From assembly GCF_024636815.1 (NCBI RefSeq), contig NZ_JAGXGF010000020.1, positions 1 to 64,000 of the forward strand: a DNA stretch of 64,000 nucleotides, written 5' to 3'. The DNA is from Marivirga sp. (lineage in GTDB: Bacteria > Bacteroidota > Bacteroidia > Cytophagales > Cyclobacteriaceae). The position numbers were made by a program, and so were the translations under genes. Below the pieces are notes generated by a model, which made no database searches, was not told the origin of the DNA, and worked only from the letters and a program-made list of their open reading frames with translations. Below, piece after piece: positions 19,955-55,995 of this stretch; within the stretch, counting starts at the first letter, position 1, and every line of letters starts with the position of its first letter.

Positions 19955-21841
19955 TTAATTAATTTTAAAGGTTTTATTTATACTGATTTGAAAATTTCTC
20001 CCCGGCATAGCATATCCGGAATACAACTGATATTCTTTATTTAATATATTTTTTACTTGAGCTGAGGTCGTCCAAATTTTATTACTCCATTTCAACCCTA
20101 TGTCTGATAATAGAAAGGATTCTAATGCATAGATGTCTGAATTGCTGTTAGTAGTATAAACTTTTCCTGTCCATTGCTGAAAAACGTCCAATGAAAATTC
20201 CCTCCAATGGAAAGAAGATGAGGCATTTGCTTTGTGTAAAGGAGTGTAAATTAATTGCTTACCAATTTCATTTTGATTGCTTTCGCTTTCAAGTACAGTC
20301 GATTTTGTGTAACTGTATTGACCATTAACCTCAAATTTCAATTCTGAAGCTATAGGAAACCTAACATTTGCACTGGTTTCAATTCCCCCAGCCAAAACCT
20401 CTTTAATATTTCTAGGTCTCCATTGATTATTTTCATCAGGTACCCATTGAATCCAATTGTCTACTTGATTATGATAGGCTGTTATGGAAAAATTCGATTT
20501 TAAATCATTCCAATGATGTAGAGATGATACAGTAACTTCTTTGTTCCAAGAGGTTTCAGAATTAAGCTCAGGCCTTCCAGCTTCGTTCCAAAATCTATCG
20601 TTTAATGTGGGTAATCTAAAATTGTAAGAGGTATTTAACTTCAGGTTTAACTGATGGTTTTTAGTATTATATAGTTGAGTAGATATGCCTACATAAGGTG
20701 AAATTGGGATATTTACTTGTGGAACAAATTGCTGTCTTAAATGAACTGCATAGTCTGTTTTTTTCCAGATTTTCCCTTTAAATAGAGCACCCAAGCTATA
20801 GCGTTCTTCAGTGGCGCCACCACCCTCATAATTTTGATTCTTTGCATCTATGTAATTATATCTTGCCGAAAATTTCATTTGATGCCTAGTGGAGAAATTG
20901 TATTTGTAATCAGCAAAACTCTCCCATCTGTCTACTTTATAATAAGAGACAGCGCGATTAAGTTGATATTCCATTTCGTCCATGAAATAACCAGTGCCAA
21001 CATTCAAACTACTTTTTACTCCTGTTTTTTTATAATTGAGATGAGTTCTTATATTTTGATCTTTTTGTTCATTTACATCTCGAGTTGAACCTATAGGAGG
21101 TTGTATTTCTCTGAAATTGTCATTGAACCAAATTGCCAGTTTTATTTTTTCAGATTCATTGATTTTATATCCGATGCTTTGGTTTATCCCCCATTTTTCA
21201 AATCTTGCATTATCTTGTTTTTCACCAGTTTGTAAAATCTCAAAATTATTTTCGGCTTTTCCCCAATACAATCGAGTATCATAAGCCCATTTTCCGTTAC
21301 TGCCATTTGCATTTAGGTTACTATTTAAAAGTCCAAAGCTTCCTATTTGCTGACCAAGTGATAATTTATTGCCTGATTTAAAATGAAGTGGATTTTCCAG
21401 CAATACTGCACCCCCAAAAGCGCCACTGCCTCCCATGCTACTTCCACTTCCCGGAATGATAGATATTTCAGAAATGGCTTGAGAAGGCAATAGCGAAAAG
21501 TCTGTTTGCCCTAAGGTGAAACTGTTGATATTGAAATTATCCCAAAGCACTGCGGTTTGACTGGCATTGGTTCCACGGAAAGAAATGGTAGTCAGCATTC
21601 CATTTCCATATTCTTTGAAATAGATACTGCTGTTTTGTTTTAAAATCTCACTGATATTATCCCCATTATAAAAGTCAAGGGTTTTTGCTTTAGGCAATAT
21701 TATATTGTTGCCAGGCAGAAACTGTTTTTCAAAATTGCCTTGCACAGAAACTTCCTCTAACACAGGAATACTATCCTGATGATTTTGTGCCCATAGTTCA
21801 TTAGTGAACCATAGCAATAAAAATACTACACCTAATCGCAT
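19955..21841 (-). CDS. btuB: TonB-dependent vitamin B12 receptor
   Basis: 628 aa with a signal peptide ending at LWAQ. The plug domain (about 25-160) includes DNISEILKQNSSIYFKEYGNGMLTTISFRGTNASQTAVLWDNFNIN and SEISIIPGSGSSMGGSGAFGGAV. The rest is a 22-strand barrel ending in a terminal strand with GRNFQISINKTFKIN. Assignment to cobalamin rather than iron uptake rests on the cobalamin riboswitch in its leader and on the BtuG-like gene directly downstream. No N-terminal carboxypeptidase-like domain is present, as usual for BtuB. It transports B12 across the outer membrane with TonB energy. Confidence 0.9.
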   Translation of the reverse strand: MRLGVVFLLLWFTNELWAQNHQDSIPVLEEVSVQGNFEKQFLPGNNIILPKAKTLDFYNGDNISEILKQNSSIYFKEYGNGMLTTISFRGTNASQTAVLWDNFNINSFTLGQTDFSLLPSQAISEISIIPGSGSSMGGSGAFGGAVLLENPLHFKSGNKLSLGQQIGSFGLLNSNLNANGSNGKWAYDTRLYWGKAENNFEILQTGEKQDNARFEKWGINQSIGYKINESEKIKLAIWFNDNFREIQPPIGSTRDVNEQKDQNIRTHLNYKKTGVKSSLNVGTGYFMDEMEYQLNRAVSYYKVDRWESFADYKYNFSTRHQMKFSARYNYIDAKNQNYEGGGATEERYSLGALFKGKIWKKTDYAVHLRQQFVPQVNIPISPYVGISTQLYNTKNHQLNLKLNTSYNFRLPTLNDRFWNEAGRPELNSETSWNKEVTVSSLHHWNDLKSNFSITAYHNQVDNWIQWVPDENNQWRPRNIKEVLAGGIETSANVRFPIASELKFEVNGQYSYTKSTVLESESNQNEIGKQLIYTPLHKANASSSFHWREFSLDVFQQWTGKVYTTNSNSDIYALESFLLSDIGLKWSNKIWTTSAQVKNILNKEYQLYSGYAMPGRNFQISINKTFKIN

Positions 21842-21943
21842 AAATTGAGTTTAATGCGACCACGGTAAAAATCAGATGTAAAAAAGTTAGCTTATAGCTT
21901 TCGTACATTCCTGACCTTTCACCCGAAAGTCGAAAATATTTAT

Positions 21944-22153
21944 GAGCTATGGCAGGTCTCCTGACTCGTCCTATGAAGTAGCGGCCTTCCCGTCAACCTA
22001 AAGGCTAACAGTGGCAAGGGTGTTGCACTTCAATTAAAAGTGGACTTACAGTTGCGGGGACAGTTTCGGAATATTAGTTTTAAAAATTAAAACCAAGCAC
22101 CGAATTCCCTTTTAATCCTGAAGGAATGAAATCCAACAGGAACCATAATTCTC
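21944..22153 (-). ncRNA. Cobalamin riboswitch
   Basis: Read on the minus strand, the leader contains the invariant blocks of the AdoCbl riboswitch in order: AAAAGGGAATTCGGTGC, CTGTCCCCGCAACTGTAAG, TTGCCACTGTTAGCC, GACGGGAAGGCCGC and GACGAGTCAGGAGACCTGCC. GAG and ATGG near 22150 can pair with CCAT and CTC near 21946 to close P1. The aptamer ends about 100 nt before the btuB ATG. A hairpin GACTTTCGGGTGAAAGGTC in that interval may belong to the expression platform. Binding of adenosylcobalamin would repress the btuB run. Confidence 0.95.
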
Positions 22154-22224
22154 TGCAAATGTAGGGGAATGAAAGATGAATTCAAATTTTTATTTTTAAC
22201 TTTAATAATTAAAATTCTTACGCT

Positions 22225-22959: not shown

Positions 22960-23046
22960 AGTAGGAGAAAATCCTACTAGCTTAAATTCAAATGACGTTA
23001 TTTAGAAGTTTTTCCTGCTTTCCTCGCTGCGATACCATGGTCATTT
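22960..23046. repeat. Pair of inverted repeats of unknown role
   Basis: AGTAGGA-gaaaa-TCCTACT is a perfect 7-bp stem with a 5-nt loop (22960-22978). Twelve bases on, AAATGAC (22990-22996) pairs with GTCATTT (23040-23046) around a 43-nt loop containing TTCCTGCTTTCCTCGCTGCGA. There is no U tract, so this is not a simple terminator. It lies downstream of the pRiA4b ORF-3 gene and just before the structured repeat. Confidence 0.55.
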
Positions 23047-23162
23047 AAAGAATAAATAATTTTAGTCTCGTAATTAAAAATTATCTAGAAACAAGGTAAT
23101 TTTGATTTATATAAGGGTAAAATAAGACCGAATTTATTTGATGAGTTAATTATTGGCTAATT

Positions 23163-23321
23163 CCCCCAATTTCGCCTTAAGCGAAAAAGTGGGCTGGAGG
23201 GTAAAATGGCGGGCCAGCGTTGGGAATTGTTGCTAGTAGCATCATTTTACCTAGATTTTTTGCCAGCCAATAGCTGGTCCGCCTCTGGCTGACATACTTT
23301 TTCATCATTGGAAAAAGTATG
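23163..23321. repeat. Three-hairpin intergenic repeat, copy 1
   Basis: Hairpin I is TTTCGC-cttaa-GCGAAA flanked by CCC/GGG. Hairpin II is GTAAAATG (23201-23208) with CATTTTAC (23243-23250) around a GC-rich loop starting GCGGGCCAGCG. Hairpin III is CATACTTTTTC-atcattg-GAAAAAGTATG (23293-23321), an 11-bp perfect stem. The second copy at 55.8 kb has the same order of stems and the same GCGGGCAGCG loop core, but different stem sequences that still pair. Copy 1 has about 30 extra bases between hairpins II and III (a CCAGC/GCTGG-rich stretch). Confidence 0.8.
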
Positions 23322-23548
23322 AATGATTAGGCTAGAATTAAAATGTAAAATTGGCAATTTAATGCTTAATTCTGCTCTCTGGGACACCATAAAACAATGA
23401 AAAGCTGCCCTTACACCAATAGAATGCACTAATGTATTTTTACCGAGGAAAACGGGTGAAGTTATTTGGAAGTTTTTCAGTTTGTCTTTTAACAAATAAT
23501 ACTTGAATCTTATTGATTAAATCGAATTCAGTCAAAGTTAGATATTAA

Positions 23549-49537: not shown

Positions 49538-49595
49538 AAAAGAGTTCGTCTCAAAAAATGTCATCCCTAGGGAAGCTTTCGAGGCGAACTCTTTT
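49538..49595. terminator. Terminator between convergent genes
   Basis: AAAAGAGTTCGTCTC pairs with GAGGCGAACTCTTTT (15 bp, one G-T wobble). The large loop contains the palindrome CCCTAGGG. It has A and T tracts outside the arms and can act for the rhodanese operon and the DUF4286 gene. Confidence 0.8.
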
Positions 49596-51984: not shown

Positions 51985-53466
51985 ATGGCTAGTAAAAAAG
52001 TAGTTGTAATTGGTTCTGGTTTTGCAGGTTTATCTACTGCGACTTATTTGGCTAATGAAGGCTGTGATGTAACAGTTTTAGAGAAAAATAGTGATCTAGG
52101 AGGACGAGCCCGTCAGTTTAAAGCTGAGGGCTTTACTTTTGATATGGGTCCAAGCTGGTATTGGATGCCAGATGTTTTTGAAAAATATTTTGAGAACTTT
52201 GGTAGAAAAGTAACTGATTATTACGATCTCCAAAGATTAGATCCTTCCTATCATATAGTATTCGGCAAAGATGACATAATGAAAGTGCCTGCAAATATGC
52301 AGGAATTCAAAGCCTTGCTGGAGAAACTCGAAGCCGGAAGTGGGGATCAATTAGATATATTCCTAGAACAAGCAGCCTACAAATACGAAAAAGGAATAAA
52401 TGATTTGGTTTATAAACCAGGTCGTTCGCTCACCGAGTTCATGAGTATTAAATTACTTTTTGATATGGTTAGAATGGATATTTTCTCTTCTATCTATAGC
52501 CATGTTCGCAAGTTTTTTAAAAATGACCGCATTATTCGATTAATGGAATTCCCTATTTTATTCCTTGGAGCTCTCCCTGAAAATACGCCTGCACTTTATA
52601 GTCTCATTAACTATGCTGACATCAGCTTGGGAACATGGTATCCCAAAGGTGGGATGCATAAAGTTGTAGAGGGTATGGTGAAGCTAGCAGAAGAAAAAGG
52701 AGTGAAATTTAAAACTGATCAGGAAGTATTGTCCGTAGATTGTGAAGGCAATCTTGCCAAAAAGGTGATTACTAAAGATAAAGCGTACGAAGCAGATGTA
52801 GTCGTTTCATCTGCGGATTATGAACATACTGACCAGAATATTCTTCCTGAAAATCTCAGAAATTATAATGCCAAATATTGGGAAAGCCGAACAATGGCGC
52901 CATCTTCTTTGATTTTTTACCTTGGAATTGATAAAAAAATTAAAGGTTTAGTCCATCATACCTTATTCTTTGATCATGATTTTGGTCCGCACGCTAAGGA
53001 AATTTATGAAACTCCTAAATGGCCGGAAGAGCCATTGTTTTATGTGAGTGCACCTTCTAAAACTGATGCCACTGTGGCACCAGAAGGCAAAGAAAATGTA
53101 TTTATTTTGATGCCTGTGGCTCCGGGGCTGGAAGATAATGAAGAAATAAGAGAAAAATATTATGATCTTATTATGGACAGAATGGAGAAAATATTAGGAG
53201 AAGATATCAAGAAATATGTAACTTATAAGCGAAGCTATGCACATAATGATTTCATTAATGATTATCATTCATTTAAAGGGAATGCTTATGGTCTGGCTAA
53301 TACTTTAAAGCAAACAGCTATATTGAAACCAAGCTTGAAGAATAAAAAACTTAAAAACTTTTATTATGCTGGTCAGTTAACTGTTCCTGGACCAGGAGTG
53401 CCTCCTTCATTGATTTCAGGACAGGTTGTGGGCAAGGAAGTAATGAAAGATCTAAATAAGAATTAA
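51985..53466 (+). CDS. crtI: Phytoene desaturase/dehydrogenase
   Basis: 493 aa. The FAD-binding start VVVIGSGFAGLSTATYLANEGCDVTVLEKN and the C-terminal CrtI signature YYAGQLTVPGPGVPPSLISGQVVG are both present. GGRARQFKAEGFTFDMGPSWYWMP is the conserved second block. It introduces double bonds into phytoene to give lycopene (or a related product) at the membrane. It is followed by crtB after 4 bp. Confidence 0.96.
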   Translation: MASKKVVVIGSGFAGLSTATYLANEGCDVTVLEKNSDLGGRARQFKAEGFTFDMGPSWYWMPDVFEKYFENFGRKVTDYYDLQRLDPSYHIVFGKDDIMKVPANMQEFKALLEKLEAGSGDQLDIFLEQAAYKYEKGINDLVYKPGRSLTEFMSIKLLFDMVRMDIFSSIYSHVRKFFKNDRIIRLMEFPILFLGALPENTPALYSLINYADISLGTWYPKGGMHKVVEGMVKLAEEKGVKFKTDQEVLSVDCEGNLAKKVITKDKAYEADVVVSSADYEHTDQNILPENLRNYNAKYWESRTMAPSSLIFYLGIDKKIKGLVHHTLFFDHDFGPHAKEIYETPKWPEEPLFYVSAPSKTDATVAPEGKENVFILMPVAPGLEDNEEIREKYYDLIMDRMEKILGEDIKKYVTYKRSYAHNDFINDYHSFKGNAYGLANTLKQTAILKPSLKNKKLKNFYYAGQLTVPGPGVPPSLISGQVVGKEVMKDLNKN

Positions 53467-53470
53467 CAGC

Positions 53471-54313
53471 ATGGATGCTAGAGAATTATTTAACCAAACT
53501 ACTTTCGAATGCAGTAAGCTGATCACGAACAGATATAGTACATCCTTTAGCTTAGGCATCAAAAGTCTTGATAAGAAATTTCATTTTCCTATTTATGCGA
53601 TTTATGGCTTTGTGCGATATGCAGATGAAATTGTAGATACCTTTCATGAAAAAGATAAAGCAGCCCTTTTAAAAGATTTTAAAAGACAAACCTTTGAAGC
53701 AATAGAACAACAAATCAGCTTAAATCCTGTTTTGCATTGTTTTCAGATGGTAGTGAATGAATATCAAATAGACCATAAATTGATAGAAGCATTTCTACAC
53801 AGTATGGAAATGGATTTGCTTGATATTGATTATGAACAATCTTCCTATGAAGAATACATCTATGGCTCTGCTGAAGTAGTAGGTTTAATGTGTTTGAAGA
53901 TTTTTTGTGAAGGAAAAGAAGAGGATTATCAGAAATTATTGCCTTCAGCAAAAAGTTTAGGATCGGCCTTTCAGAAAGTAAACTTCTTACGTGATATCAA
54001 ATCTGATTATTTCGAAAGGGGTAGAGTTTATTTCCCTGGAGTTGATTTCAATGATTTTTCTGCATCTCATAAAGAGAAAATTGAAGCGGATATTCAAAAA
54101 GATTTCGATCATGCTTATGAAGGAATTATCCAGTTGCCACGAGGCGCAAGATGGGGCGTTTATTTGGCCTATACTTATTATTTGAAATTATTTGATAAAA
54201 TAAAACGATTTCCCCCTGATAAAATATTAGAAGAACGAGTAAGAGTTCCAGATTCAAAAAAACTATTTTTACTGTTGGGTAGTTATGTAAAACATCAGTT
54301 CAATACGCTTTAA
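53471..54313 (+). CDS. crtB: Phytoene synthase
   Basis: 280 aa. The first Asp-rich site is YADEIVDTFHE and the second is LGSAFQKVNFLRDIKSDYFERGRVYFP, the pattern of the trans-isoprenyl diphosphate head-to-head synthases. It condenses two geranylgeranyl diphosphates to phytoene, the committed step of carotenoid synthesis. It is co-transcribed with crtI and ispH (gaps of 4 and 9 bp). Confidence 0.95.
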   Translation: MDARELFNQTTFECSKLITNRYSTSFSLGIKSLDKKFHFPIYAIYGFVRYADEIVDTFHEKDKAALLKDFKRQTFEAIEQQISLNPVLHCFQMVVNEYQIDHKLIEAFLHSMEMDLLDIDYEQSSYEEYIYGSAEVVGLMCLKIFCEGKEEDYQKLLPSAKSLGSAFQKVNFLRDIKSDYFERGRVYFPGVDFNDFSASHKEKIEADIQKDFDHAYEGIIQLPRGARWGVYLAYTYYLKLFDKIKRFPPDKILEERVRVPDSKKLFLLLGSYVKHQFNTL

Positions 54314-54322
54314 AAATCAGCC

Positions 54323-55168
54323 ATGATGAACCTAAACGTTAAAATAGATAATAGTTCCGGATTCTGCTTTGGGGTAGTGTATGCTATCGAAATGGCAGAA
54401 GACATGCTCGATGAACAAGGTTACCTTTATTGTTTGGGCGATATTGTGCATAATGATGAAGAAGTAAAAAGACTTGAAGCAAAAGGATTGAAAATTATCG
54501 ACCGCGAAGCTTTAAAAGAATTGACTGATGAAAAGGTCTTAATCAGAGCCCATGGAGAGCCGCCTAGTACCTATAAATTAGCCATTGAAAATAATCTCAC
54601 CTTAGTGGATGCTTCATGTCCTGTAGTTTTAAAATTACAGAATAGAATTAAGAATTCTTTCGATAAAAAAGAACAAATATACATCTACGGAAAGCATGGG
54701 CATGCAGAAGTTGAAGGCTTATTAGGACAAACTAATCAGGAAGCAGTCGTTTTTCAGGATATAAACGAGTTGGATATCGACAGTTTACCAAGAGAAATGA
54801 CGCTTTATAGTCAAACCACCAAAAGCACTGATAATTTCTATAAAATAAAAGAAACCTTAACCGAGGCTGGTATAAGTGTTAATGCTAATGATACTATTTG
54901 CCGACAAGTTTCTAATAGAGATAAAGAGTTAAGATCATTCGCTGGAGAATTTGATAAAGTTATTTTCGTATCGGGAACAAAATCATCTAATGGAAAGGTT
55001 TTGTATAATGTATGCAAGGATAAAAATCCAAATACATATTTCATCTCAAACATTACTGAATTAGATAAAAGCTGGTTTGCTGAAAATGATTCTGTAGGAA
55101 TTTGCGGGGCCACTTCCACACCTATGTGGTTGATGGAGCAAGTTCGGGATGAACTATTGAAATATTAA
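54323..55168 (+). CDS. ispH: 4-hydroxy-3-methylbut-2-enyl diphosphate reductase
   Basis: 281 aa, the short Bacteroidota form. The three Fe-S cysteines lie in SGFCFGVVYAIEMA, VDASCPVVLKL and NDTICRQVSNRDKE. HAEVEGLLGQ keeps the catalytic Glu, and RAHGEPP and GTKSSNGKVL bind substrate. IspH is the last enzyme of the MEP pathway and supplies IPP and DMAPP. Its place inside a carotenoid operon couples precursor supply to pigment production. Either of the two adjacent Met codons may be the start. Confidence 0.93.
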   Translation: MMNLNVKIDNSSGFCFGVVYAIEMAEDMLDEQGYLYCLGDIVHNDEEVKRLEAKGLKIIDREALKELTDEKVLIRAHGEPPSTYKLAIENNLTLVDASCPVVLKLQNRIKNSFDKKEQIYIYGKHGHAEVEGLLGQTNQEAVVFQDINELDIDSLPREMTLYSQTTKSTDNFYKIKETLTEAGISVNANDTICRQVSNRDKELRSFAGEFDKVIFVSGTKSSNGKVLYNVCKDKNPNTYFISNITELDKSWFAENDSVGICGATSTPMWLMEQVRDELLKY

Positions 55169-55193
55169 GCTTAATTTAGTAGAATAATAAATC

Positions 55194-55673
55194 ATGTCAG
55201 ATATATTAACCATCTTATTTTATGCTTTATTGATTGTAGGTACCTTCTTCTTTATGGAAGGGGTGGCTTGGTTTACGCATAAGTATATCATGCATGGATT
55301 TCTTTGGACTTGGCATAAATCACATCATAAAGTGCATAATCATAAGCTGGAAAGAAATGATTTGTTTGCAGTGGTATTTAGTGTTCCTTCTGCTGCATTG
55401 ATCATGGCAGGAATCGAATTTCCTGAGTTAAGATGGTTACTATTTGTAGGGATTGGAGTGGCGTGTTATGGAGTATTCTATGTTTTGTTCCATGATATTT
55501 TAGTGCACAGAAGAGTGAAATTAAAATTCAAAGCTGAAAATTCTTACTTGAAAAGAATGATGAGAGCACATTACATTCATCATGAAGTACATACGAAAGA
55601 AGGAGCTGAGGCTTTCGGGTTTTTATATGCCCCAAAAAAATATGAGCCTAAAGAGGAGAAAAGTAAAGCTTAA
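55194..55673 (+). CDS. crtZ: Beta-carotene hydroxylase (sterol desaturase/FA hydroxylase family)
   Basis: 159 aa membrane protein with four hydrophobic segments. The di-iron histidine clusters are HKYIMH, HKSHHKVHNH, FHDILVHRR and HYIHHEVH. It adds 3-hydroxyl groups to beta-ionone rings, making zeaxanthin. A lycopene cyclase gene, which must supply cyclic substrate, is not in this cluster, so it must be encoded elsewhere in the genome. Confidence 0.93.
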   Translation: MSDILTILFYALLIVGTFFFMEGVAWFTHKYIMHGFLWTWHKSHHKVHNHKLERNDLFAVVFSVPSAALIMAGIEFPELRWLLFVGIGVACYGVFYVLFHDILVHRRVKLKFKAENSYLKRMMRAHYIHHEVHTKEGAEAFGFLYAPKKYEPKEEKSKA

Positions 55674-55995
55674 TGTGGAAATTCAGTATAGGAATGACTT
55701 CGAAATTCTATCTTTTTTATTAAAAATTTGCGATTTCAAAACTTATTTTCATAGAAGATAACATGAATTTTGATTTACAGGAACAAAAGGATTAACCCGA
55801 CCACTTCCGAGGAACTCGGAAAAGCGGGAGGGAGGACAAAACAGCGGGCAGCGTGGGAACGGGGAGGAAGCTTTGTTTTGTCTTGAATTTTTGTTTCTTT
55901 TTATTCAAGTAAAAAGAAAGGCAAAAAGCAACCAAAGAATTGAAAATATACAAAAATTTCAAATAAACTGAGTTATTGGTTTTTAGTAATATTCA
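55674..55995. other. 322-bp non-coding interval with repeat copy 2
   Basis: No gene is seen. The interval carries copy 2 of the three-hairpin repeat (55796-55919) and is otherwise AT-rich. It separates the carotenoid genes from the convergent TPR protein gene. Confidence 0.75.
55796..55919. repeat. Three-hairpin intergenic repeat, copy 2
   Basis: Hairpin I is TTCCGAG-gaa-CTCGGAA with outer CCCG/CGGG. Hairpin II is GACAAAAC (55835-55842) with GTTTTGTC (55875-55882), around a loop that begins AGCGGGCAGCG. Hairpin III is TTTCTTTTTA-ttcaag-TAAAAAGAAA (55894-55919). The order and spacing match copy 1, and all three stems remain paired in spite of different sequences. Confidence 0.8.

Follow-up and report, generated by a model that had tools for sequence, protein, structure and literature searches.

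The structured intergenic repeat found twice in the window (the whole 64,000-nucleotide stretch of Marivirga sp. DNA analysed here) is probably, at roughly two chances in three, the structured core within a family of short non-autonomous transposable elements, the unit around copy 1 being MITE-like with long, variable target duplications. The case for a transposon is strong for the GTAAAATG subfamily, which includes copy 1; the other subfamilies may or may not be mobile in this sense. Core copies in those subfamilies and in other genera have the same fold, but may be of greater age or use a different route of movement.

Covariation of the core and the hexamer/loop pairing

In copy 1 (window coordinates, + strand throughout), hairpin 1 lies at 23170-23186 (TTTCGC 23170-23175 / GCGAAA 23181-23186) and covaries between two subfamilies only. 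The central stem, delimited by covariation, has its 5' arm GTAAAATG at 23201-23208 and its 3' arm CATTTTAC at 23243-23250; the conserved apical core GCGGGCCAGCG (23209-23219) follows the 5' arm and was recognised from the loop-pattern matches. The hexamer CTAGAT (23251-23256), partner of the hairpin 3 loop according to the hexamer/loop comparison described below, comes next, then a 30-bp palindromic module inserted before CAT (CCAGCC...GGCTGA, 23263-23292), and finally hairpin 3 at 23293-23321, with arms CATACTTTTTC (23293-23303) and GAAAAAGTATG (23311-23321) and the loop ATCATTG. Copy 2, also on the + strand, has hairpin 1 at 55805-55821 (TTCCGAG 55805-55811 / CTCGGAA 55815-55821), a central stem at 55836-55881 with arms ACAAAACA (55836-55843) and TGTTTTGT (55874-55881) and the core GCGGGCAGCG, and, at 55882-55919, the hexamer CTTGAA and a hairpin 3 with the complementary loop TTCAAG, whose arms are TTTCTTTTTA (55894-55903) and TAAAAAGAAA (55910-55919). 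The motifs quoted for both copies in the preliminary description were all found in place, and its three stems, with different bases in the two copies, do still pair.

The 30-bp module between stems 2 and 3 of copy 1 is missing from several sister copies. Modules of this CCAGCCAGAGGCTGGTCAGCCTCTGGCTGA type stand before CAT at two different sites of the element, depending on the subfamily, the site in the AAAGTTTA subfamily not being that of copy 1; they also occur in loci L001, L013, L016, L131 and others. Other small palindromes have been inserted in the element at L006, L040, L086, L125 and L062.

Folded as single-stranded DNA, copies 1 and 2 both did better than 200 of 200 dinucleotide shuffles (z -4.05 and -4.50). 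When 14 copies from the genome that the window comes from (the source genome) were aligned, 13 of them found by the loop pattern and one by BLAST, 95.1% of the cells were paired. The alignment has 52 double changes where shuffles give 17.7, and pairing fell to 38-57% once the partner arm was slid. Because the loop alone picked the copies, the arms of those loop-selected copies provide a fair test of pairing. Among 30 copies from several genera, 97.0% of the cells of the central stem were paired as against 67% in shuffles, with 94 double changes against 29.4 and with 10 of the 11 pairs changing on both sides; this set was found with a stem-aware model, which biases its pairing percentage upwards and affects the variety of pairs to a lesser degree. 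Both alignments bear out the earlier claim of helices kept by compensatory change. Of the three conserved hairpins that had been proposed, the central stem holds, but hairpin 1 is common only to subfamilies within the genus and is not conserved outside it. The order of parts over 92 copies is a variable hairpin 1, GGAGG, an 8-base arm, GCGGGCCAGCG with a G-rich apical part ending in AGCAT, the complementary arm, a CTTGAA-type hexamer, TTTTTG, and a T-rich/A-rich hairpin 3. The core is predicted to fold either as RNA or as single-stranded DNA.

A further pairing, new here and overlooked in the preliminary description, joins the loop of hairpin 3 to the hexamer that follows the central stem: the two are complementary and change together, as in CTTGAA/TTCAAG, CTTGAT/ATCAAG, CTTGTA/TACAAG, CTTGAC/GTCAAG and CTTGGC/GCCAAG. 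A left tetramer CTAG goes with a loop CATG or CAATG, and a left CATG with a loop CTAG, so in this swap the order in which the two middle bases correspond is parallel, not antiparallel. The two variable bases of hexamer and loop match in 23 of 45 distinct combinations (2000 shuffles: mean 7.8, maximum 14), a count in which the parser misreads some cases. The pattern CTTG/CAAG, CTAG/CATG, CATG/CTAG offers a concrete candidate recognition code. An H-type pseudoknot of hexamer and loop was set aside by reasoning, there being no linker between the loop and the 3' stem; by the same reasoning the contact would have to involve a fully paired loop or an alternative fold. At the locus of copy 2, a related genome (G004) also holds a copy, with the arms AAAGTTTA / TAAACTTT where the window has ACAAAACA / TGTTTTGT; both arms are different, and together with them hexamer and loop alike, which may reflect compensatory change, gene conversion or separate insertions.

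Ends and target duplications of the GTAAAATG subfamily

In the GTAAAATG subfamily, that of window copy 1, 27 copies align over about 410 bp, and their consensus stops at 13-bp terminal inverted repeats, CCTGTTTTCCTCG ... CGAGGAAAACAGG. The unit so delimited, about 380-443 bp long, encodes no conserved protein and sits between genes, mostly downstream of at least one. For copy 1 it extends from 23014 to 23456 on the + strand, 443 bp by the 27-copy alignment and the abutting repeats, with the left terminal repeat CCTGCTTTCCTCG (consensus CCTGTTTTCCTCG) at 23014-23026 and the right one, CGAGGAAAACGGG, at 23444-23456. Flanking it on the + strand is a target duplication, the direct repeat TGACGTTATTTAGAAGTTTTTC at 22993-23014 being identical at 20 of 22 positions to that at 23457-23478; the left direct repeat adjoins the terminal repeat, and its final base is the terminal repeat's first base. 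The 159-bp feature first reported is a real repeat, enclosed in a much longer unit in the case of copy 1. The sequence of the central arm of this subfamily (ATTTTACC, window 23201-23250) recurs beside the right terminal repeat (TTTTACCGAGG, 23438-23444), which may be chance.

Duplications of 22 (window copy 1), 43, 70, 88, 128, 155 and 181 bp were seen at copies with recognisable ends; all seven touch the terminal repeats, closely so in six of the seven. In three further GTAAAATG copies the direct repeats, 24-62 bp long, are separated from the ends. At L163 and L032 the duplicated segment, read by eye, seems to take in a host gene's 3' end. When left and right flanks were compared, 36 of 102 copies scored above the 95% level of a mismatched-flank control, a figure to which arrays and other repeats contribute. 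At L035 (G000 contig 234) the element lies between the two copies of an 88-bp duplication with one mismatch, and the locus in G001 has neither the element nor the second copy of the target. A 660-bp block containing window copy 1 is absent from G007, where the two flanking genes lie a few bases apart. The GTAAAATG subfamily has MITE features: terminal inverted repeats, target duplications of 22-181 bp and, in G001, an empty site.

Most DDE transposons have target duplications far shorter than these. A SINE-like retroelement, in which a structured RNA is copied by reverse transcriptase at a nicked target, would account for long, variable duplications of this kind, and the covarying core could be such an RNA. 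Both ends carry precise terminal inverted repeats, however, and no series of copies truncated at one end is seen among the GTAAAATG units with duplications, so that we consider this explanation quite improbable.

The AAAGTTTA and ACAAAA subfamilies, which include window copy 2, have the core, but neither terminal repeats nor abutting duplications were seen in them. A search of ten genomes for an autonomous partner with the ends of the GTAAAATG unit (22-base pattern, up to 3 mismatches) found none, the only matches being the ends of the MITE copies themselves; the source genome is incomplete, and Y1 was the transposase family covered.

Distribution, setting and the RAYT question

The loop core GCGGGCN{0,2}AGCG, expected 0.01 times in the 64-kb window, occurs there twice. 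It has 16 matches in the source genome, as against none for the reversed control, and 15 of the 16 are the structured repeat, in agreement with the loop core GCGGGC(C)AGCG that had been singled out as conserved. With the covariance model, 35 matches are found in that genome (a draft of 242 contigs, 88% complete), so the repeat is not confined to the two copies first noticed. It is present in nine of the ten genomes examined from the genus, at 8-53 covariance-model copies per genome in eight of the nine others. Over the class, the core was found in 38 of 247 genomes and in at least 25 of the 142 sampled genera; carriers of the core pattern include Marivirga aurantiaca, M. sericea and Algoriphagus ratkowskyi. 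Rfam 15 yielded no match at or near gathering score, a plasmid collection and viral contigs gave no match, and no published description of the family was found in the open-licence literature, which is weak evidence.

Gene context was available for 88 copies, none of which falls within an ORF of at least 90 aa, as expected from the earlier view of an extragenic element without a protein frame; 35 of them are in convergent, 46 in tandem and only 7 in divergent intergenic settings. Apart from RAYTs, what recurs beside the copies is mainly shared loci and repeat-derived frames, and a recurrent partner gene was accordingly rejected. A replication-strand bias was looked for in G004 (GC skew, 20 samples), where a hand count placed 19 of 30 copies on one side, no bias; dnaA was not located at the GC-skew switch of that genome.

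A functional host RNA that mobile DNA carries along only passively, for instance a 3'-UTR element, a terminator or an RNA-stability element, would suit three observations: the central stem covaries strongly (97% of its cells pair in the 30 copies), copies are enriched downstream of genes, and at the copy-2 locus of G004 both arms and both hexamer/loop partners are different. Against it, the flanking genes are many and unrelated, the repeat has no Rfam match and is missing in one species of the genus and in the majority of genomes of the class, and promoter-like and terminator-like signals are not clearly above shuffles; a promoter or terminator role as such was discarded with those signals at chance level. 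Taken together, a host RNA seems unlikely beside the transposon core that we prefer.

In other families of the class the core is found in mosaics of several hairpin repeats, sometimes as tandem arrays. At L331 (G175) and L330 (G288) it alternates with other hairpin repeats, among them the GTGCCAGC...GCGCTGGCGC repeat and CTCCTACGGAGC, in mosaic tandem arrays with a unit of about 290-520 bp. At L148 (G006 contig 1), L149 (G006 contig 2, 25,320 bp) and L150 (G009) copies lie between replication-module-like genes; the L148 and L149 settings, on the chromosome and on a small contig, are 97% identical, and there are three tandem cores at this place in G006 and one at the matching place in G009. Integron-like cassette arrays were considered and dropped, as no conserved small genes were seen in the tandem arrays of G006, G009 and G175, which contain other repeats.

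Several other features were observed in the window. Copy 2 lies just downstream of an apparent carotenoid cluster (51985-55673) with, judging from translations only, phytoene desaturase-like, phytoene synthase-like, IspH-like and CrtZ-like hydroxylase genes. A cobalamin riboswitch (21934-22162, - strand, 103.8 bits) is found upstream of a TonB-dependent-receptor-like gene (19955-21841, - strand), and a strong inverted repeat, AAAAGAGTTCGTCTCAAAA / TTTCGAGGCGAACTCTTTT, lies at 49538-49595, its arms 89% complementary and 20 nt apart.

The preliminary description had likened the repeat to REP/BIME elements mobilised by RAYT transposases. Its extragenic habitat and clusters agree with that likeness, but mobilisation by RAYTs is not supported: other palindromes flank the RAYTs that were read, and the counts do not track. 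If REP/BIME-like hairpins were mobilised in trans by a Y1 transposase (RAYT), with loop and hexamer as guide and cleavage site as in IS200/IS605, this would fit with copies that are extragenic, clustered and partly in alternating orientation, with the joint variation of hexamer and loop, and with the HUH transposases of the genus. In addition, a RAYT subclass of Bacteroidetes is reported to have atypical secondary structures next to it, of which the genome contains further copies (PMC6006769). We nevertheless think it no likelier than the host RNA, since the RAYTs that were read have different flanking palindromes, copy number does not follow RAYT number, and terminal inverted repeats together with target duplications occur in one subfamily. 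IS200/IS605 and REP elements are not known to possess either.

A search for RAYT (Y1) genes in the source genome did reveal such genes, two above the Pfam cut-off and a third, divergent HUH gene, but all sit among other palindromes. G006 holds 15 copies and has no PF01797 match (two divergent RAYT relatives were found by protein query), while G008 has one PF01797 match and no copies; Y1 counts thus do not track the repeat. The model was run over 25 Y1/RAYT loci and found a copy in only two: at L019 it lies about 1.9 kb past the last RAYT, and at L111 it is next to a broken RAYT. In a third case, L113, an intact RAYT about 300 bases downstream of a copy stands between inverted copies of a different palindrome. 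No REPtron, that is, no RAYT flanked by copies of the repeat, was seen in the RAYT loci read, nor does the repeat, a multi-helix core of about 100-150 nt, contain a short REP palindrome (20-40 bp) with a foot of the GTAG or CGTC type. A RAYT partnership was given up on these grounds, the Y1 genes of the source genome and 58 relatives, as well as a divergent RAYT of the genus, being found with other palindromes. With palindromes from other families on either side (CCCGCCATGCTCTGCATGGTGG; GCGCGCGTTGCG type), the RAYTs at L113:1886-2437 and L111:1808-2065 are candidate Marivirga REPtrons in their own right.

Possible mechanism and comparison with known systems

For the transposon core preferred here, a transposase acting in trans, IS1634/IS1549-like to judge from the long, variable duplications, would cut the two target strands far apart, and gap filling would then duplicate the target; the fold of the core might be needed for mobility, or might make insertions harmless at gene ends. 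A bolder extension is a Bacteroidia-wide mobile class whose transposition depends on a folded core with a variable but always complementary central stem and a hexamer/loop recognition pair, inserted via two independent, distant nicks by DNA- or RNA-primed synthesis; this we regard as doubtful. With many copies, precise ends and duplications of 22-181 bp, the elements lend themselves to a comparative study of the long-duplication mechanism, and their core is a structured family that covaries strongly and has no counterpart in Rfam 15. They also serve as a warning that covarying intergenic hairpins of Bacteroidota can be parts of transposons rather than host RNAs.

Like REP/BIME elements and their RAYTs, including subclass 2.6 of Bacteroidetes (PMC6006769), the repeat forms many extragenic palindromes, clusters and mosaics. 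Its unit, however, is about 100-440 bp long with several helices and without a GT[AG]G-footed single palindrome, one subfamily has terminal repeats and target duplications, and no RAYT has the repeat on both sides. The ends of IS200/IS605-type elements have hairpins and, as here, a short sequence 5' of the hairpin that is complementary to a second site. In IS608 that second complementary site lies outside the hairpin, whereas here it is in the hairpin loop; and the GTAAAATG subfamily, unlike IS200/IS605 and its derivatives, combines terminal inverted repeats with a target duplication.

MITEs such as MITECca01 of Cardinium, also a member of the Bacteroidota (PMC9769881), are likewise short, non-coding, present in many copies, bounded by terminal inverted repeats and mostly intergenic. 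The unit described here differs in being built on a covarying hairpin core shared far beyond the genus and in its long, variable target duplications, and the end-pattern search of ten genomes found no parental IS for it. IS1549 and IS1634 have direct repeats of 8-514 bp, reported without a mechanistic model in a 2008 review (PMC2266710), and their end consensus C-----YT (PMC2266710) is compatible with CCTGTTTTCC of the present element. No transposase gene lies in the unit or is linked to it; the likeness is one of ends and of long, variable duplications, 8-514 bp there and 22-181 bp here.
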